Shown in pieces: positions 30,685 through 64,000 of a DNA stretch of 64,000 nucleotides (positions are counted from its first letter, which is position 1; each line of letters opens with the position of its first letter). This DNA is from Ramlibacter lithotrophicus (GTDB taxonomy: Bacteria > Pseudomonadota > Gammaproteobacteria > Burkholderiales > Burkholderiaceae_C), in NCBI RefSeq assembly GCF_012184415.1, contig NZ_VTOX01000002.1, forward strand, positions 310,001 through 374,000, read 5' to 3'. The notes beneath the pieces are model-generated. The model did not search any database. It was not told the DNA's origin and saw nothing but the letters and a program-made list of their open reading frames with translations. The translations under genes and the position numbers were made by a program.

Positions 30685-32097
30685 TCAGATGATGCGGGAG
30701 AAGCGGGCGCGGTTGCGGTCGGCCTGCAGGTACTTGTCGAACACCATGGCGACGGCGCGCACGAAGTACCAGCCCATGGCCGTCACCTGGATGCCGGTGT
30801 CGTCGACGACGACCAGCCCCTGCTCCTGCTGCGCCTTGAGGGTCTCGAGCTCCGTCGCGAAATATTCGCGGAAGTCCAGCAGCCAGGCCAGTTCGATCGA
30901 TTCGAACGTCACCTGGCCCTGGCACATGATGGCCATGATCACGGCGCGGCGCACCAGGTCGTCGCGGCTGAGCGCCAAGCCGCGCACGATCGGCAGCCGG
31001 CCATGGTCGATCAGGTCGCAGTACTCCTCCATCGTCTTGGCGTTCTGGCTGTAGGTGGCGCCCACCTTGCCGATGGACGACACGCCCAGGCCGATCAGGT
31101 CGCAATCCGAGTACGTGCTGTAGCCCTGGAAGTTGCGGTGCAGGCGGCCCTGGCGCTTGGCCACGGCCAGCGAGTCGTCGGGCAGCGCGAAGTGGTCCAT
31201 GCCGATGTAGACGTAGCCGGCTTCCTGCAGCGTGTTGAGCGACTGCGACAGCATGGTCACCTTGTCCGGCACCGGCGGCAGTTCGGAGCCCAGGATCCGG
31301 CGCTGCGGCTTGAAGCGCTCGGGCAGGTGGGCATAGGCGTAGACGGCGATGCGGTCGGGCCGCAGGTCCTTGATCTGTTCCAGCGTGCGGGCGAACGACT
31401 CGGGCGTCTGCCGCGGCAGGCCGTAGATCAGGTCGACGTTGATCGACTCGAAGCCGATGGCGCGGGACTGCTCGACCAGCTTGAACACCTGCTCGGCCGG
31501 CTGGATGCGGTGCACCGCCTTCTGCACGTCGGCGTCGAAATCCTGGACCCCGAAGGACAGGCGGTTGAAGCCCAGGCCCCACAGGGCCTGCAGCCGCTGG
31601 CCGTCGATCGTGCGCGGATCGACCTCGATCGAATATTCCCCGCCCGGCGCGAACGTAAAATTGCGCCGCAGCATGCTCATCAGTTCGCCGAGCTCCTCGT
31701 CGGACAGGAAAGTGGGGGTCCCGCCGCCCAGGTGCAACTGGCTGACGGACTGGCCGATTCCCAGGCGCTCGGTGTGCAGGTCCACCTCGCGGGCCAGGTA
31801 CTTCAGGTAGCCGGCCGCCCGCTCGTGGTGCTTGGTGATGATCTTGTTGCAGCCGCAGTAATAGCAGAGCGACTCGCAGAAGGGGATATGGACGTACAGC
31901 GACAAGGGCATCGCCAGCGCCGCCGGACCGGCCTTGCGCTGCTCCAGCGCCTGGCCGTAGTCGGTGTCCGTGAACGCCTCCACGAAGCGGTCCGCTGTCG
32001 GATACGAGGTGTAACGGGGGCCGGGAACGTCGTAGCGCCGCAGCAGCTCGGGCGAGAGAGGTGTCATCGTGGATGCGAACATGGAAGTATGGCTCAT
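30685..32097 (-). CDS. hemN: Oxygen-independent coproporphyrinogen III dehydrogenase (radical SAM)
   Basis: A 470-residue radical-SAM enzyme for anaerobic haem synthesis. GPRYTSYPTADRF precedes LYVHIPFCESLCYYCGCNK, with the CxxxCxxC cluster motif (YYCGC is typical of HemN). LHLGGGTPTFLSDEELGELM and the HemN C-terminal domain follow. Starts at 32097, 32082 and 32067 are all possible; the later ones fit better if transcription begins close to the operator at 32126. It is divergent from the fnr-like gene and shares its control region. Confidence 0.93.
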   Translation of the reverse strand: MSHTSMFASTMTPLSPELLRRYDVPGPRYTSYPTADRFVEAFTDTDYGQALEQRKAGPAALAMPLSLYVHIPFCESLCYYCGCNKIITKHHERAAGYLKYLAREVDLHTERLGIGQSVSQLHLGGGTPTFLSDEELGELMSMLRRNFTFAPGGEYSIEVDPRTIDGQRLQALWGLGFNRLSFGVQDFDADVQKAVHRIQPAEQVFKLVEQSRAIGFESINVDLIYGLPRQTPESFARTLEQIKDLRPDRIAVYAYAHLPERFKPQRRILGSELPPVPDKVTMLSQSLNTLQEAGYVYIGMDHFALPDDSLAVAKRQGRLHRNFQGYSTYSDCDLIGLGVSSIGKVGATYSQNAKTMEEYCDLIDHGRLPIVRGLALSRDDLVRRAVIMAIMCQGQVTFESIELAWLLDFREYFATELETLKAQQEQGLVVVDDTGIQVTAMGWYFVRAVAMVFDKYLQADRNRARFSRII

Positions 32098-32125: not shown

Positions 32126-32139
32126 TTGATATTAATCAA
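32126..32139. promoter_or_regulatory. Perfect FNR box between hemN and the fnr-like gene
   Basis: TTGAT-ATTA-ATCAA is a perfect match to the FNR consensus TTGAT-N4-ATCAA. A -10-like GACAAT (32161-32166) lies 21 bp beyond it on the plus strand, giving a start near 32173 for the fnr-like gene. For hemN the -10 is less clear; AAGTAT or TATGAG close to 32095-32101 are candidates. Confidence 0.85.
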
Positions 32140-32193: not shown

Positions 32194-32976
32194 ATGAACG
32201 AAACCCCCCTGCACGCCCACGAGGCGAACCTGATACCGTCGAGCGAACCACCGCTGTTCGACGGGCACAGCATGAAGGTGGCGTGTTCGAACTGCAACCT
32301 GCGCGAGCTGTGCATGCCGGTCGGCCTCAGCCCCCACGAACTGGCCCGCATCGACGAGGTGGTGGCCGTGCGGCGCAAGGTCAAGCGCGGCACCACCCTC
32401 TTTCGCAACGGCGAGGTGTTCCAGTCGCTGTTCGCGATCCGCACGGGATTCTTCAAGACCTGCGTCACGGCCGAAGACGGCCGCGACCAGGTGACTGGCT
32501 TCCAGATGGCCGGCGAGATCATCGGCCTGGACGGCATCGTCAACGACCACCACACCTGCGACGCGGTCGCGCTGGAGGACGCCGAGGTCTGCGTGATGCC
32601 GTTCGATCGCATCGGCGAGCTCTCGCGCGAGGTCAACGCGCTGCAGCACCACGTGCACCGGATCATGAGCCGCGAGATCGTGCGCGAGCACGGCGTCATG
32701 CTGCTGCTCGGGAGCATGCGGGCCGAGGAGCGGCTGGCCGCCTTCCTGCTGAACCTGGTGCAGCGGCTGCACGCGCGCGGCTTCTCGCGCTCGGAACTGG
32801 TGCTGCGCATGACGCGCGAGGAGATCGGCAGCTACCTCGGGCTGAAGCTCGAGACCGTCAGCCGCACCTTCTCGAAGTTCGCCGAGGACAACATCGTGGA
32901 GGTGCGCCAGCGTCACGTCCGCATCCTCGACACCGCCGCCCTGCGCCGCATCGTCAACCAGCAGCCGGCAGCGTAA
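32194..32976 (+). CDS. fnr: FNR-type oxygen-sensing transcriptional regulator
   Basis: A 260-residue CRP/FNR protein. Four cysteines lie at 31, 34, 40 and 122 (CSNCNLRELC and HHTCDAVA), the arrangement that holds FNR's oxygen-labile [4Fe-4S] cluster. The cNMP-like barrel follows, then the dimer helix and a C-terminal HTH. The HTH reads TREEIGSYLGLKLETVSRTF, with Glu220, Ser223 and Arg224 as the contacts that read TTGAT half-sites. It is divergent from hemN and flanked by two boxes. It is the natural candidate for the operators repeated through this island. Its 3' end overlaps the convergent acyl-CoA-synthetase gene by 23 bp. Confidence 0.94.
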   Translation: MNETPLHAHEANLIPSSEPPLFDGHSMKVACSNCNLRELCMPVGLSPHELARIDEVVAVRRKVKRGTTLFRNGEVFQSLFAIRTGFFKTCVTAEDGRDQVTGFQMAGEIIGLDGIVNDHHTCDAVALEDAEVCVMPFDRIGELSREVNALQHHVHRIMSREIVREHGVMLLLGSMRAEERLAAFLLNLVQRLHARGFSRSELVLRMTREEIGSYLGLKLETVSRTFSKFAEDNIVEVRQRHVRILDTAALRRIVNQQPAA

Positions 32977-58345: not shown

Positions 58346-58677
58346 CGCCGGGAAGACTGCCGCTGGGGTTGTCACCGCGCACCGGGCTGCCACCCGGGCG
58401 GGAACCGCCTGCACATCGGGCGACGACCGCGGCGCACCACGTCACGGTCGGCGGGCCGCCTTGGATCGCGGCCCCATCGCGTCGCCCTGCCGCAGTCGGC
58501 GGTCCACCCGGCGCACGGTGACATCGATCAATCTAGGCCGGGGCAGCGCGCCGGCAATGATGCAGGTCAATGTGCAAGTTGCGCCGGGCAGCGGCATGGC
58601 GCTCATCCGCGCAGCGCATCCGCATGCAACTGCGTGGCCCGGTCACAAGGCCCTGCACCAGTCGCGGCCGGCCGGGA
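58346..58677. other. Intergenic stretch before the exported-E1 operon, no gene seen
   Basis: About 330 bases with no credible coding frame. I found no tRNA or clear terminator. TTGCG at 58579-58583 lacks a partner half-site, so only the box at 58678 is accepted. Confidence 0.5.
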
Positions 58678-58718
58678 TTGACGTAGCGCAAAGCCAAAGC
58701 TCGGCGGCGGCCTACGTT
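58678..58718 (+). promoter_or_regulatory. FNR-type operator and -10 of the exported-E1/cytochrome operon
   Basis: TTGAC-GTAG-CGCAA (58678-58691), and TACGTT (58713-58718) after 21 bp. Start near 58725, 27 nt before ATG 58752; GGGAG lies in that leader. Confidence 0.75.
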
Positions 58719-58751
58719 TGCTCTGTCCACTCACAGCAAGGGAGACCGCAT

Positions 58752-59987
58752 ATGTCCTCACCCGACAGCCTCGTACGCGCGGATGCACCGTCGCTGGCAC
58801 CCGTCACGGATCCGATCGGCGCCCTGGGCCGGCGCGCATTCATGAAGTCCGTCGCGAGCGCGGGCGCGGCGGTCTCGCTGATGACCGGCCAGTCCGCGTT
58901 CGCCGCCGGCGAAAGCGGTTACTGGTCGAAGGACCTGCCGAACGACAAGCTCGTCGACATGTTCACCACCATCGTGCGCATCCGCTGGCACGAGCGCACC
59001 ATGGCCGACAAGATGGCCAGCGACCCGAACTATCGCGGGTACAACCACTTCTACGCGGGCCAGGAAGCCGTCGCGGCCGGCGTCTGCGCCGCGCTGAACA
59101 ACAAGGGCGGCGTCCTCGAGGCCGACCTGGTCTACAGCACGCACCGTCCGACCGGCCACGCGATCGCCAAGGGCATGGACATGAAGAAGATGGCGGCGGA
59201 GGAGGAGTTCAAGGCCACCGGCATCAACAACGGCTATGCCGGCGAGATGCACCTGTCCGATGCCTCGATCGGCTTCATCGGTGCCGACGGCATGATCGGT
59301 CCCGGCCCGGTGATCGCCACCGGCTCGGCCTTCGCCATCAAGGCGCGCGGCAGCAAGCAGGTGGTGGTCAACTTCGGCGGCGACGGCACTTACGCGACGC
59401 CGCACTTCCACGCGACGCTGAACAACGCGGCGCTCCTGAAGCTGCCCTTCATCTACGTGCTGGAGAACAACCTCTACCACCAGTACGCGCACTACTCGTA
59501 TTCGTGCCCGATGAAGGACATCGCCGATGCGGCCCGGACCTATCGCATTCCGGGCGTGGTGGTCGACGGCCAGGACGTGTTCCAGGTCTACAACGTCGCG
59601 AAGATCGCCGTGGACCGCGCGCGGGCCGGCGAAGGCCCGACGCTGATCGAGGCCAAGACCTATCGCTACTACAACCACTGGGGCGCCCCGGGCGTGAAGC
59701 CGGGCGAGCTCGGTGCGTTCGGCTACGACCCGCTGGCGATCTCCTCGTTCCGCCCGGAGCGCGAAGTGCGCGCGTGGATGCAGCGCGATCCGGTGGTGAT
59801 CGCCCGCGACGTCCTGATCAACTGGGGCGTGCTGACGCGCGCCCGCGCCGACCAGATCGAGGCGGCGGCGAAACAGGAGGCGATCGAAGCCTTCGCGTGG
59901 GCCGCGCAACAGCCTAACTGCAAGCCCGAAGACGGCCTGCGCAACGTGTTCGTCGAAGGCGTGGTTCCGGCCCGCCAGTTCGGCTGA
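58752..59987 (+). CDS. Thiamine-diphosphate dehydrogenase E1 alpha subunit with a twin-arginine (Tat) signal
   Basis: A 411-residue E1 alpha protein (pyruvate/acetoin/branched-chain type). The core matches the family: RWHERTMADKMASDPNYRGY, YNHFYAGQEAVAAGVCAALN, STHRPTGHAIAKGMD, and the ThDP motif from GDGTYATPHFH to FIYVLENN. Unlike cytosolic E1, it starts with about 50 extra residues. They contain GRRAFMKSVASAGAAVSLMT (residues 26-45), a textbook Tat signal, ending SAFAAG. It should be exported folded. GGGAG precedes ATG 58752. The E1 beta gene follows; no E2 or E3 is in the window. Confidence 0.88.
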   Translation: MSSPDSLVRADAPSLAPVTDPIGALGRRAFMKSVASAGAAVSLMTGQSAFAAGESGYWSKDLPNDKLVDMFTTIVRIRWHERTMADKMASDPNYRGYNHFYAGQEAVAAGVCAALNNKGGVLEADLVYSTHRPTGHAIAKGMDMKKMAAEEEFKATGINNGYAGEMHLSDASIGFIGADGMIGPGPVIATGSAFAIKARGSKQVVVNFGGDGTYATPHFHATLNNAALLKLPFIYVLENNLYHQYAHYSYSCPMKDIADAARTYRIPGVVVDGQDVFQVYNVAKIAVDRARAGEGPTLIEAKTYRYYNHWGAPGVKPGELGAFGYDPLAISSFRPEREVRAWMQRDPVVIARDVLINWGVLTRARADQIEAAAKQEAIEAFAWAAQQPNCKPEDGLRNVFVEGVVPARQFG

Positions 59988-60005
59988 TCGCTCAAGGAGA
60001 AAACC

Positions 60006-60977
60006 ATGGCACGCAAGAGCTGGATGTATTCCGTCCTGGAGGCAGTGCAAGGCGAGATGCGGCAGGACAAGAGCATGGTGTGGATCTTCGAGCTGACGCC
60101 CCCGGTCGCCTCGACCCCCGGCAAGCCGGTGATCAACCTGGAGCGCGAGTTCGGCCGCAACCGCGTGGTCAACACGGGCATCGACGAGAACTGGATGGCG
60201 TCCGCGACGCTGGGCGCGGGACTGGCCGGATCCAGGGCCGTGACCTACATCCCCTACCAGGGCAACGCCATGTGCTTCCAGGTGATCCAGAACCATGCCG
60301 GCAAGCTGCGTTCGATGAGCGGCGGCAAGGCCGCGATGCCGGTGGTGTTCATTCTCGAGATGACCGGGCAGACGCCGGGCTTCGCCGGCCAGCATTCGGA
60401 CTACGAGATCGACACCTACTACGCCCACATCGCCGGCGTGAAGACGGTGGTGCCTTCGACGCCGTACGACGCCAAGGGCATGATGGTCTCGGCCATCCGC
60501 GACCCGAACCCCGTGGCGTACCTGTATCCGGCCGGGCTGCGCGAGCTGATGGAGGAAGTGCCCGACAACCAGTACACGGTCCCCCTGGACAAGGCGGCGA
60601 TCCGCACCACCGGCAGCGACATCACCATCGTCGGCTCCGGCGCGAGCATGCCCGACGTGATGGAAGCCACGGGCAAGCTGCAGGCGCAGGGCATGAAGGT
60701 CGAGGCGATCGACCTGCGCTGCCTCAAGCCCATGGACACCGAGACGCTGGTGAAGTCGGTCCAGAAGACCAAGTACCTGCTGACGGTGGACCAGAGCTAC
60801 TACACGCTGTGCCCCGGCGCCGAGGTGATCGCGCGGGTGGCGGAAAACGTGGCCGGCGCGCGCTTCAAGCGCGTCGCCTTCCCCGACGCGCCGCCGCCGG
60901 CCTCGCCCGAGATGTTCCTGTGGATGCGGCCGAGTGCCGAGAACGTGGTCAAGGCCGCGCTGAAGCTGGTCGGCTGA
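60006..60977 (+). CDS. Thiamine-diphosphate dehydrogenase E1 beta subunit
   Basis: A 323-residue transketolase-like E1 beta protein. RVVNTGIDENWMASATLGAG, TYIPYQGNAMCFQVIQNHAG and GQHSDYEIDTYYAHIAGVKT match, and the C-terminal transketolase domain has DLRCLKPMDTETLVKSVQKT. It lacks a signal of its own; if the alpha subunit is Tat-exported, the beta subunit could be carried as a folded passenger. It starts 18 bp after alpha with AAGGAGA as ribosome site. Confidence 0.88.
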   Translation: MARKSWMYSVLEAVQGEMRQDKSMVWIFELTPPVASTPGKPVINLEREFGRNRVVNTGIDENWMASATLGAGLAGSRAVTYIPYQGNAMCFQVIQNHAGKLRSMSGGKAAMPVVFILEMTGQTPGFAGQHSDYEIDTYYAHIAGVKTVVPSTPYDAKGMMVSAIRDPNPVAYLYPAGLRELMEEVPDNQYTVPLDKAAIRTTGSDITIVGSGASMPDVMEATGKLQAQGMKVEAIDLRCLKPMDTETLVKSVQKTKYLLTVDQSYYTLCPGAEVIARVAENVAGARFKRVAFPDAPPPASPEMFLWMRPSAENVVKAALKLVG

Positions 60978-60988
60978 AGGAGGCACAC

Positions 60989-61267
60989 ATGGCGCGGTCC
61001 TTCATGACCTGCACGAACTGCGGCGGCGAGGACGTGCAGCCGGCGGCGGTGAAATCCGCCTTCTGGCACGACGACCGCCTGGTGGTCGTGGAGGACATCC
61101 CCGCGCTGCGCTGCGGCGCCTGCGGCGAGCAGTTCTACGACGACAACACGGTGCTGGTGCTGGACCTGATGCGCGGCCAGGGCTTCGCGGAAGGGCAGGC
61201 CAGCTCGCACGTCAGCGTGCCGGTGTTCTCGTTTCGCGATCACGTGCCCGGCGCGGGGGGGTCATGA
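60989..61267 (+). CDS. YgiT/MqsA-type zinc-ribbon small protein
   Basis: A 92-residue protein with two CxxC knuckles: MTCTNCGGEDVQP and ALRCGACGEQFYDD, the arrangement of YgiT/MqsA N-terminal domains. There is no HTH after it and no MqsR toxin gene, so an antitoxin role is unlikely. AAGGAGG precedes ATG 60989. It overlaps the first cytochrome gene by 4 bp. It could be a zinc or metal-handling helper for the dehydrogenase; that is a guess. Confidence 0.75.
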   Translation: MARSFMTCTNCGGEDVQPAAVKSAFWHDDRLVVVEDIPALRCGACGEQFYDDNTVLVLDLMRGQGFAEGQASSHVSVPVFSFRDHVPGAGGS

Positions 61268-61803
61268 ACGCGGCGCGGTCGATGGCGGCCGCGCTCGCGC
61301 TGGGCGCCTCGCTCGTCACGCCGGCCGCACTGGCGGCGGCGGGCGAGGACTTCAACTTCATGCCCAAGGGAGGGCGGGCGCTGCTGCTGGAGACGATCGG
61401 CAGCACGCCCGCGCAATTGCGTCCCGTCGTGCAGAGCAAACGCACCGAGGCCCAGTGGCGCGAGTTCGCCGACGCGCAAGGCAAGCGCCTGACCGAGCGC
61501 GAGCGCGCGACGCTCGCCGCCTACCTCGCCGTCAATCTGCCGGTGGACGGCCCGCTGGACAGCGCGCAGCAACTGCCGCGCGACGGGCGCGACCTGGCGT
61601 GGGAAGAGTGCCAGTCCTGCCATTCGCTGTTCTCGAGCCATCTCACGCAGGAGCGCAGCGCACAGCACTGGCGCAACATGTTCATGTCGCCGTTCCACCG
61701 GCAGATGAAGATGACGCCGCGCGAGCGCGAGGAGTTCGCGCGCTATTCCGAGCTCAACATGCCGATGAAGGTCGACGAAGTGCCGCCGGACCTGCGGTTC
61801 TAG
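61264..61803 (+). CDS. Exported mono-haem c-type cytochrome, first of a pair
   Basis: A 179-residue exported protein. Sec signal peptide (ALALGASLVTPAALAAAG), then EDFNFMPKGGRALLLETI, a linker domain, and one CxxCH haem motif (EECQSCHSLF) at about residue 117. A Met in FMSPFHRQMK is aligned with one in the second cytochrome and could be the second haem ligand. Overlap with the zinc-ribbon gene shows operon membership. It would accept electrons in the periplasm. Confidence 0.83.
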   Translation: MNAARSMAAALALGASLVTPAALAAAGEDFNFMPKGGRALLLETIGSTPAQLRPVVQSKRTEAQWREFADAQGKRLTERERATLAAYLAVNLPVDGPLDSAQQLPRDGRDLAWEECQSCHSLFSSHLTQERSAQHWRNMFMSPFHRQMKMTPREREEFARYSELNMPMKVDEVPPDLRF

Positions 61804-61828
61804 GAAACGAAGCACAGGGAGGCCCATC

Positions 61829-62428
61829 ATGACAAGGCCGGCGATTTCCAGGCGCGTAATCGCCGCGCTGATCGCGGGATTGGGCGCGCTGTCCGCGGCC
61901 CACGCCGCCGAGGACATCTTCGACTTCATCCCGCAGGGCGGCCGCACGCTGCTCGCGAACGTGCTGGCCGGCCGCAAGGCCGAGGACGTCCGGGCCATGG
62001 TAGGCGTCAGGCACACCCGTGACGAATGGGTCGCCGAACTCAAGCGCCGCGGCCCGCAGTTCCCCGCCGTGCAGCGGCTGTCCGACAGGGAGCTGGCGAC
62101 GCTGGCCGACTACATGTCGTTCAACCTGCCGCTGCCGCCGGCCAAGGTGCCGGCGAATCCGAGCAAGGCCGCCTGGGACAAGGCGCTGCCGCTGGACGGG
62201 CGCGACATGACGCTGGAGTACTGCCAGAGCTGCCACATCGTCACGGTGGTCGTGACGCAGGACCGCACGAAGCAGGCCTGGCTCGGCTCCATGAACAAGC
62301 CGAGCCACGTGCAGATCAAGCTCAACGCGCAGCAGCGGGAAGCGTTGGCGAACTACCTGGTGCTGAACGCGGCGATCCCGATCGACCAGGTGCCCGAGGA
62401 CCTGCGCGCCGGCGGCGCCACGTACTGA
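61829..62428 (+). CDS. Exported mono-haem c-type cytochrome, second of a pair
   Basis: A 199-residue paralog of the previous protein. Signal peptide ends ALSAAHAAE; EDIFDFIPQGGRTLLANVLA echoes EDFNFMPKGG of the first, and the haem motif is EYCQSCHIV. Conserved downstream parts are SMNKPSHVQIKL and QVPEDLR. The CxxCH is single. Tandem duplication is evident from the shared order of motifs. It starts 25 bp after the first cytochrome and ends 22 bp before the MBOAT gene. Confidence 0.83.
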   Translation: MTRPAISRRVIAALIAGLGALSAAHAAEDIFDFIPQGGRTLLANVLAGRKAEDVRAMVGVRHTRDEWVAELKRRGPQFPAVQRLSDRELATLADYMSFNLPLPPAKVPANPSKAAWDKALPLDGRDMTLEYCQSCHIVTVVVTQDRTKQAWLGSMNKPSHVQIKLNAQQREALANYLVLNAAIPIDQVPEDLRAGGATY

Positions 62429-62450
62429 GCGCGGCGCCCGGGGGCGCGGC

Positions 62451-63917
62451 ATGCTGTTCAACTCGCTCGAGTTCTTCCTGTTCCTGCCCGTGGCGCTGGC
62501 GGTGTTCGCGGCGCTGCCGGCGTCGGCGCGCTGGGGCTGGTTGCTGGCGGCCAGCTGCTTCTTCTACGGCTTCGCGCGGCCGGCCAACCTCGCGTTCCTG
62601 GCCGGCGTCACCCTCCTCGTCTCGGCCTGCGGCTCGCTGATCGCGCGCACGCCGTCCCCGCTGGCGCGGCGCAGCCTGCTCGCGGCCGGCCTCGTGACGC
62701 TGATCGGGGCGCTGGCCGCCTTCAAGTTCCACGACTTCGCCGCCGGCGAGCTCGAGCGGCTGCTGCAGGACGATACCGGTGCCGGACCGGCGCTGCCGCG
62801 GCTGGGCACGGCGGCTCCGGCCGGCTTTTCGTTCTACGTGTTCTCCGGCGCCGCGTACCTGATCGACGTCTTCGCGCGGCGGCTGCCGTCGCAGCCGCAC
62901 GCGGGCCACCTGGCCTTGTACGTCGCGTGGTTCCCCAAGATCCTCGCTGGCCCGATCGAGCGCGCCACGACCTTCCTCCCGCAGCTGCGTCACGGGCTGC
63001 GCGCGACGCCCGAGCAGCTGGTGCTCGGCTCGCAACTGATCGTCTGGGGCCTGGTCAAGAAGGTGCTGATCGCCGACAACCTTGCGCCATTCGTCGACCG
63101 CACGTTCAACATCGCCGCCTACGCCTCGCCGGTCGACCTGCTGATCAGCGTGTATTTCTTCGCGTTCCAGATCTACTGCGACTTTTCCGGCTACACCGAC
63201 ATCGCGATCGGCGTGTCGCTGCTGTTCGGCATGCAGCTGATGCAGAACTTCCGCCGACCCTACCTGTCGCGCAGCACCTCGGAGTTCTGGAGCGAGCGCT
63301 GGCACATCTCCCTGGGCCGCTGGTTCCGCGACTACCTGTACATCCCGCTCGGCGGCAGCCGCGCCGGCCGCACGCGACAGTACCTGAACCTGATGCTGGT
63401 GTTCATCGCCAGCGGCCTGTGGCACGCCGGCCTCGGCTACGGCGTTGGCTGGACCTTCCTCGCGTGGGGGGTTCTGAACGGCGGCTACCAGTGGGCGGGG
63501 CTCGCCACTCGCCCCTTCTGGCGACGGCTGGGCGCAAAGCTGCCGCGCGTCGCGGCCAGCCGGCCGTGGCTCGTCGTGCGGGTGCTGCTCACGTTCCACC
63601 TGATCGCCGTCACGTGGATCTTCTTCCGGGCGAAAACGCTTGCCGACGCCTGGACCATCCTGTGCAGGATCGCCAGCAACCTGGCCGCCATTCCGGGCCT
63701 GCTCGCGCATTACCCGTTCACGCCGGACCACCTGCTCGGCTTCGCGCTGATCGGCGCCCTGCTGGCGATCGAACTGCTCGACGAGCGGCGCTCGATCTTC
63801 CTGCGCCTGGCCGCCGCCCGCACGGCGTGGCGGTGGGCGGCGAGCTACGCAGGGATCTTCGCTGTGCTCGTGCTCGGCCGCTGGCAGTCGCGCGAGTTCA
63901 TCTACATGCAGTTCTGA
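62451..63917 (+). CDS. MBOAT membrane O-acyltransferase, AlgI-like
   Basis: A 488-residue inner-membrane acyltransferase with about 11 helices. MLFNSLEFFLFLPVALAVFA at the start, WFPKILAGPIERA, FAFQIYCDFSGYTDIAIGVS, FWSERWHISLGRWFRDYLYI and the catalytic His in FIASGLWHAGLGYG are AlgI hallmarks. It passes acyl groups from the cytoplasm to a periplasmic partner for polymer O-acetylation. ATG 62451 has a weak ribosome site. Its TGA overlaps the next gene's start. Confidence 0.87.
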   Translation: MLFNSLEFFLFLPVALAVFAALPASARWGWLLAASCFFYGFARPANLAFLAGVTLLVSACGSLIARTPSPLARRSLLAAGLVTLIGALAAFKFHDFAAGELERLLQDDTGAGPALPRLGTAAPAGFSFYVFSGAAYLIDVFARRLPSQPHAGHLALYVAWFPKILAGPIERATTFLPQLRHGLRATPEQLVLGSQLIVWGLVKKVLIADNLAPFVDRTFNIAAYASPVDLLISVYFFAFQIYCDFSGYTDIAIGVSLLFGMQLMQNFRRPYLSRSTSEFWSERWHISLGRWFRDYLYIPLGGSRAGRTRQYLNLMLVFIASGLWHAGLGYGVGWTFLAWGVLNGGYQWAGLATRPFWRRLGAKLPRVAASRPWLVVRVLLTFHLIAVTWIFFRAKTLADAWTILCRIASNLAAIPGLLAHYPFTPDHLLGFALIGALLAIELLDERRSIFLRLAAARTAWRWAASYAGIFAVLVLGRWQSREFIYMQF

Positions 63918-64000
63918 TGATGGACAGCATCGCACCGGAACGGAGCATGCGGACGCTGGCGCGACGCGCGGCGACGTTCGCCGGCCTGGGGCTGCTGCTG
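63917..64000 (+). CDS. Start of a probable AlgJ/SGNH-type partner of the MBOAT protein (cut by window edge)
   Basis: The first 28 codons only: a cytoplasmic Arg-rich segment (MRTLARRAAT), then the beginning of a hydrophobic helix (FAGLGLLLL). The position after an AlgI-like gene with overlapping stop/start (ATGA) suggests a membrane-anchored SGNH or AlgJ/AlgX-like acetyltransferase. Start could be 63917 or 63920. Confidence 0.5.
   Translation, partial: MMDSIAPERSMRTLARRAATFAGLGLLL

Follow-up and report, generated by a model that had tools for sequence, protein, structure and literature searches.

The E1 components (alpha2beta2) of pyruvate dehydrogenase (PDH), branched-chain 2-oxoacid dehydrogenase and acetoin dehydrogenase share their alpha and beta domain families, thiamine diphosphate (ThDP) motif and catalytic residues with an enzyme pair encoded in a stretch of 64,000 nucleotides of Ramlibacter lithotrophicus (contig NZ_VTOX01000002.1, positions 310,001 to 374,000), termed the window below. 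E1-family enzymes normally end in enamine oxidation, and one-electron dyes, e.g. ferricyanide or 2,6-dichlorophenolindophenol (DCPIP), can serve as acceptors for isolated E1 enzymes. Another ThDP enzyme, the pyruvate:quinone oxidoreductase PoxB, oxidizes a 2-oxoacid without lipoamide and feeds respiration, in which it resembles the pair described here. However, PoxB belongs to another ThDP family, contains FAD, works at the cytosolic side and passes its electrons to quinone. We know of no natural ThDP dehydrogenase working outside the cytosol. In a literature search no paper was found on the oxidation of E1 by one-electron acceptors, and the open-licence papers listed described no exported ThDP dehydrogenase, apart from a pyruvate decarboxylase engineered for the periplasm (PMC6692523). 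The pair in the window is part of a seven-gene operon. On balance, we consider it probable that this operon encodes a periplasmic, lipoamide-independent ThDP dehydrogenase, which gives electrons to two cytochromes and possibly from there to an Mtr conduit.

Six of the genes are closely spaced on the forward strand at 58752-63917, and the seventh starts at the window edge (Table 1). An earlier interpretation of this DNA, made without database searches and called the sequence-only reading here, had placed the alpha and beta subunits, a zinc ribbon and two cytochromes in one operon. This order was found again in three further genomes. The gene start at 58678 was not confirmed; this position lies upstream of the alpha gene. 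For the alpha subunit, overlapping draws of 99, 369, 398, 399, 300, 11 and 5 genomes, 1466 distinct genomes in total, were searched with thresholds from 0.001 to 1e-60, and scoring in the large draws was limited to the top candidates from a loose first pass. The operon was present in four genomes, namely R. lithotrophicus itself (G000), a second genome of the same genus (G008) and one genome from each of two other genera of the same family (G1139 and G1165). The orthologous alpha subunits matched with E-values of 1.5e-218 or better. The next-best match, in G1203, reached 2.4e-58 with 42% identity and looks like an ordinary E1.

All seven genes are arranged in identical order in the four genomes, with intergenic gaps of -4 to 37 bp (by coordinates, the gap before the seventh gene of G000 is -1 or 2 bp). 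Since this order and the twin arginines (RR) of the alpha subunit are kept in three further genomes, the operon is more than a chance arrangement. Identities over all pairs were highest for beta (82-86%) and alpha (76-84%), followed by the MBOAT protein (60-68%), cytochrome B (54-66%), cytochrome A (47-60%), the zinc ribbon (49-58%) and the SGNH protein (45-56%). For each gene and pair the nonsynonymous substitution rate (dN) was lower than the synonymous rate (dS). Ratios of 0.09-0.33 were obtained for alpha and beta; the zinc ribbon and cytochrome A are under looser constraint, with dN/dS up to about 0.65. The operon is patchily distributed (carried by 2/59 members of the own genus in one draw, and by 1/11 and 1/5 genomes in two small draws) and its surroundings vary, e.g. 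with a tRNA-Val gene 150 bp upstream in G008. This suggests horizontal transfer or repeated loss.

The sequence-only reading described a twin-arginine translocation (Tat) signal on the alpha subunit ahead of its ThDP core, and both parts were found intact. RR is located at residues 27-28 (GRRAFMKSVASAGAAVSLMTGQSAFA), with a run of uncharged residues and an AxA-type site between it and the E1 core. The motif is present in all four orthologues (GRRAFM, GRRSFL, SRRSFLK and NRRGFFK), each time with 13-21 uncharged residues behind it, while the first 25 residues have diverged. Homologues with a conserved operon but without RR had been named as evidence against export; RR was kept in each of the four. 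For comparison, ordinary E1 alpha subunits, the majority of them from the same order, were collected from 38 loci, four of which gave no match (L004-L007). Within the segment scanned, an RRx[FLIVM] string occurred in 4 of the remaining 34, none with more than eight uncharged residues after it; this count includes three wrong-frame rows (L013, L016, L043), which were dropped for the tree and loop counts to leave 31 rows. TatC is encoded in all four operon genomes. Because RR and the uncharged stretch survive despite the diverged N-terminal region, the sequences give good support to the predicted export of alpha.

The catalytic core is that of an E1 enzyme. Alpha matched E1_dh of Pfam with 176 bits (cut-off 22), beta matched Transket_pyr with 56.7 bits (cut-off 27) and Transketolase_C with 93.8 bits (cut-off 25.9). 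For both subunits, the closest chains in the PDB come from E1 of PDH and of further 2-oxoacid dehydrogenases. With the two NCBIfam equivalogs for pyruvate dehydrogenase E1, alpha stayed below the cut-offs (219 against 394 and 164 against 411 bits). G210-D211-G212 and E238-N239-N240 of alpha (ThDP motif GDG..ENN) are kept in all four orthologues, as are R132, R305 and H309; E61 and H130 of beta are invariant in the five rows of the alignment. We take these residues of both subunits, together with the ThDP positions, to be the catalytic and cofactor residues of E1. In a tree of 35 rows, the four alpha subunits form one clade with 100/100 support and a stem of 1.91 changes per column.

A difference was found in one loop. 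The segment from H309 to R334 of alpha, presumably the phosphorylation loop of mitochondrial E1, measures 26 residues in all four orthologues, compared to 10-15 in all 31 ordinary alpha subunits. It contains a 16-residue insertion at 316-331, near-identical across the four, where the aligned human PDH E1 shows a gap of 16 residues. For the available part of the source, a disordered phosphorylation loop is described to impede the binding of the lipoyl domain (PMC3397410). The catalytic centre thus appears to be kept with a rebuilt docking place for the lipoyl arm, which we read as a change of acceptor. As proposed by the sequence-only reading, neither E2 nor E3 is encoded among the seven genes of any of the four operons, the rest of the genomes not having been searched for them. 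Gene set and rebuilt loop together support the putative loss of the lipoyl partner.

The paralogous cytochromes A and B share 40% identity. They had been described as two exported mono-haem c-type cytochromes. Their single haem motif was confirmed, and their N-termini are signal-like by eye. One CxxCH and a second invariant histidine are present in all eight sequences from the four operons. With this second histidine, the haem could have bis-His ligation and a low potential; in cytochrome B a conserved methionine is located nearby as well, allowing Met ligation. The N-terminal half is also conserved, with a PxGGR motif. A weak match to SorB was obtained for cytochrome B (E 0.0005; 20 bits, cut-off 93). 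In every operon genome, a profile of the cytochromes detected two copies and no more (E 0.01), both within the operon. Hence, they look dedicated to it.

In the proposed mechanism, alpha and beta would fold and load ThDP and Mg in the cytosol, where the zinc ribbon might, as a guess, aid assembly before export. The beta subunit has no signal and would ride on alpha, so that both leave via Tat as one complex. In the periplasm, the enzyme would attack a 2-oxoacid or an acyloin to form the hydroxyalkyl-ThDP carbanion. Two electrons could then pass singly to the two dedicated mono-haem cytochromes in place of the lipoyl arm of E2, and acyl-ThDP would be released as the free acid or passed on. From the cytochromes, the electrons might reach the respiratory chain or an outer-membrane conduit of the MtrCAB type.

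Such a conduit adjoins the operon in one genome. In G1165, genes for an MtrC-like protein (10 CxxCH), an MtrA-like protein (8 CxxCH in the called open reading frame) and MtrB/PioB lie directly upstream on the same strand, and MtrB ends 94 bp before the start of alpha. The MtrB_PioB model scored above cut-off in all four operon genomes. In the draw of 399 genomes from the family, 42 were above cut-off (50 at E 0.001; 37 at 1e-70, by our own count). The three operon genomes of this draw, to which G008 does not belong, are all among the 42, with Fisher P-values of 0.0011 (42) and 0.0007 (37) that ignore kinship. The draw includes five more members of the own genus, none with MtrB_PioB. Clusters of mtrC, mtrA and mtrB were found in G000, G008 and G1165, with decahaem proteins in those of G000 and G008. 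Electron transfer onward to an Mtr conduit is possible, with the conduit as a candidate sink. In the available part of one source, R. lithotrophicus RBP-2 is implicated in oxidative extracellular electron transfer (PMC8805035). Should electrons flow inward through the conduit there, E1 would not be its donor.

Some observations on the Mtr loci are added here. On contig C5 of the own genome, a cluster mtrB-mtrA-mtrC with two decahaem MtrC-like proteins is located at L070:5137-13823, adjoining a locus that by eye resembles succinate dehydrogenase. The Mtr cluster of G008 adjoins genes like those of a ccm operon (by eye). Six Mtr clusters next to a ccm operon, including that of R. lithotrophicus RBP-2, are reported in the part of PMC8805035 at hand. 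One of the two MtrB/PioB genes of G1139 lies on contig C1 (L072 5447-11138), with multihaem genes before it and several proteins with one or two CxxCH behind it. Within the stretches read around MtrB/PioB of G1139, no clear MtrC was found.

Transfer of electrons from the E1 pair to the cytochromes, as put forward by the sequence-only reading, is suggested by two things, the strict gene linkage and the link to Mtr. Several points weigh against the proposed mechanism. No relay such as FAD or Fe-S is encoded that could split two electrons between ThDP and haem. The MBOAT and SGNH proteins, conserved in all four operons, are not needed by this mechanism, and the sequence-only reading did not account for them. 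The cytochromes reached the cytochrome models of Pfam only below cut-off (best 20.8 against 27 bits). With their profile, no PDB entry was found under E 0.05, and the nine matches between 0.05 and 0.74 were mostly unrelated proteins. The structure predicted with AlphaFold had a pLDDT of 50.7, too poor to use. Regarding Mtr, the genus of G1139 (g557) has MtrB_PioB in 5/5 genomes and the operon in one of them; G1139 thus adds nothing to the association. Moreover, 39 of the 42 MtrB_PioB genomes of the family draw are without the operon, and the Mtr loci of G000, G008 and G1139 are located on contigs other than that of the operon.

The MBOAT and SGNH genes suggest that acylation of the envelope belongs to the system, which gives the main rival explanation. 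Here, the exported E1 would make acyl groups on the outer side of the membrane, the cytochromes would remove the electrons, and MBOAT and SGNH would acylate an envelope polymer, with acylation coupled to respiration, and not energy, as the purpose. Both genes follow with tight spacing in 4/4 operons, MBOATs with DltD/AlgJ-like partners usually acylate envelope polymers, and the GTSH and DHLN strings of the SGNH protein resemble SGNH active-site motifs by eye. The family scores are low for both, with 126 bits for MBOAT against the DltB equivalog (cut-off 375) and 24.1 bits for SGNH against PF19040 (cut-off 27). However, known MBOATs take their acyl donors from the cytosolic side, and we know of no step by which an MBOAT could receive acyl groups from ThDP. 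No gene for an acceptor polymer, DltA or DltC was found among the seven genes, the rest of the genome not having been searched. We regard this explanation as unlikely.

Rather improbable is a periplasmic ThDP lyase or carboligase instead of a dehydrogenase, with cytochromes that serve another enzyme and share only the promoter. ThDP enzymes readily perform non-oxidative chemistry, and a relay between ThDP and haem is not encoded. In contrast, the cytochrome profile matches only the operon copies in the four genomes, in fixed order behind E1, and the usual end of E1 catalysis is the oxidation of the enamine. Very unlikely, in our view, is that the RR segment is no working signal and alpha-beta remains cytosolic, acting as an ordinary dehydrogenase of 2-oxoacids or acetoin with E2 and E3 borrowed from another complex. 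Further E1 genes are present in the own genome besides the operon pair, so E2 and E3 may exist there, too. Nevertheless, RR, the uncharged stretch and the AxA site are kept in all four alpha subunits beside a diverged N-terminal region, the loop is rebuilt in each of them, and the operon is shared with genes for exported or membrane proteins.

For the operon, use at low oxygen behind an FNR-type promoter had been assumed. The best FNR-like boxes upstream, at 58518 and 58557, have two mismatches each, and an equally good box occurred in 2.35% of 2000 Markov resamplings of the 420-bp upstream region. Upstream of the operon, one such box was found in G008 (3.65% of the resamplings), one in G1139 (15.5%) and none in G1165. 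The promoter is thus doubtful, with two mismatches at best and no convincing conservation across the relatives. Use at low oxygen is nevertheless plausible from the location. At 28600-58345 of the window, the adjoining island is a long series of dormancy and low-oxygen genes, with those for a beta-CASP nuclease, PhaC, an alcohol dehydrogenase, BON, HSP20, USP, GroEL, S30AE, CBS and LonB-like proteins, and this run resembles the low-oxygen (lxa) locus of Burkholderia cenocepacia as given in the available part of its description (PMC6127331). The neighbourhood of the operon, to a distance of about 15 kb, includes a USP gene together with BON or HSP20 in G1139 and G1165; near the operon of G008 no USP, BON or HSP20 gene was seen.

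Elsewhere in the window, a perfect FNR box (TTGATATTAATCAA) is located at 32126-32139 between two divergent genes, by eye HemN-like (30685-32082, reverse strand) and FNR/CRP-like (32194-32976, forward strand). Just beyond the window, at L039:5440-8657, follow genes for a BON protein, a thymidine/AMP phosphorylase-like and a ribose-phosphate pyrophosphokinase-like protein (by eye); the BON gene is preceded by an FNR-like GTGATCCAGATCAA.

Table 1 Features of the operon and its upstream region; positions refer to the window
Feature	Position	Strand	Remarks
Two weak FNR-like boxes, two mismatches each	58518..58531 and 58557..58570	+	Not convincingly conserved
E1 alpha, ThDP-binding subunit with N-terminal Tat signal	58752..59987	+	ATG at 58752, preceded by RBS-like GGGAGA
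Tat signal peptide region, residues 1 to about 52	58752..58907	+	AxA-type site near residues 49-52, judged by eye
E1 beta, Transket_pyr and Transketolase_C	60006..60977	+	No signal peptide by eye
YgiT-type zinc ribbon, 92 aa	60989..61267	+	YgiT_finger 47.4 bits (cut-off 20.2); no signal by eye
Mono-haem c-type cytochrome A, N-terminus signal-like by eye	61264..61803	+	CQSCH at residues 116-120; second invariant histidine His145
Mono-haem c-type cytochrome B, N-terminus signal-like by eye	61829..62428	+	One CQSCH; 40% identical to A
MBOAT O-acyltransferase, DltB/AlgI-like	62451..63917	+	In 4/4 operons
SGNH/DltD-like protein, start	63917..64000	+	ATG at 63917 or 63920; extends past the window to L039:4910

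Further candidates were rejected as relatives of the operon. The E1 alpha subunits of G1203, G1230 and G1317 (42, 39 and 37% identical) are probably ordinary, because they have no Tat signal and are accompanied by no other operon gene. A relative of beta adjoins alpha in G1203 and G1230 and was not found in 15 kb of G1317. Among viral contigs, 61 pattern matches contained no relative. On plasmids, nothing was detected at 1e-60; at 1e-30 there were 210 records, all below 60% identity (15 of 210 listed). A pattern-based scan of contigs, using the poor patterns TMADKMA and KG[MI]DMKK, gave among the matches listed only one flavobacterial E1 with 30% identity.

Tentatively, the operon may represent a new class of periplasmic ThDP respiratory dehydrogenase, although we hold this wider claim with less confidence than the reading of the operon itself. 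A Tat-exported, ThDP-loaded E1 heterotetramer would use two low-potential haem c proteins instead of lipoamide, and its electrons could be delivered to MtrCAB. Organic acids would thus be oxidized and decarboxylated outside the inner membrane, and their respiration to extracellular acceptors would require no entry into the cell. If this holds, the chemistry of vitamin B1 would join that of PQQ, molybdenum and flavin in periplasmic respiration, lipoamide would not be the sole natural partner of E1 enzymes, and 2-oxoacids or acyloins could be respired without uptake. The Mtr link, if true, would provide a new periplasmic entry point for extracellular electron transfer. The small gene set makes the operon reading testable.

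Among the described systems, the MtrCAB and PioAB conduits are a possible electron sink; as far as the source at hand describes them, an E1 operon is no part of the system, and the words thiamine, TPP and pyruvate are absent from its main text (PMC8805035). The periplasmic pyruvate decarboxylase of Zymomonas mobilis is a ThDP enzyme exported with a gluconolactonase signal sequence. In contrast to the operon E1, it is engineered, non-oxidative and of another ThDP family, and in the available part of its description it works with no cytochromes (PMC6692523). The export proposed for alpha and beta resembles that of PaoABC and hydrogenase-2 of Escherichia coli, for which the accessible part of the source describes signal-less partners carried by a Tat-signalled subunit; their cofactors differ, with NiFe and Fe-S in hydrogenase-2, and are not ThDP (PMC4273604). 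Compared to ordinary E1, the operon enzyme has a Tat signal on alpha, a loop insert of 16 residues, its own cytochromes, no E2 or E3 genes in the operon, and it falls far short of the PDH equivalog cut-offs. The pairing of a periplasmic dehydrogenase with a small cytochrome, as proposed here, is known from the sulfite dehydrogenase SorAB and from quinohaemoprotein amine dehydrogenase. Cofactor and fold of these enzymes are unrelated to E1, and the operon instead has two paralogous cytochromes.

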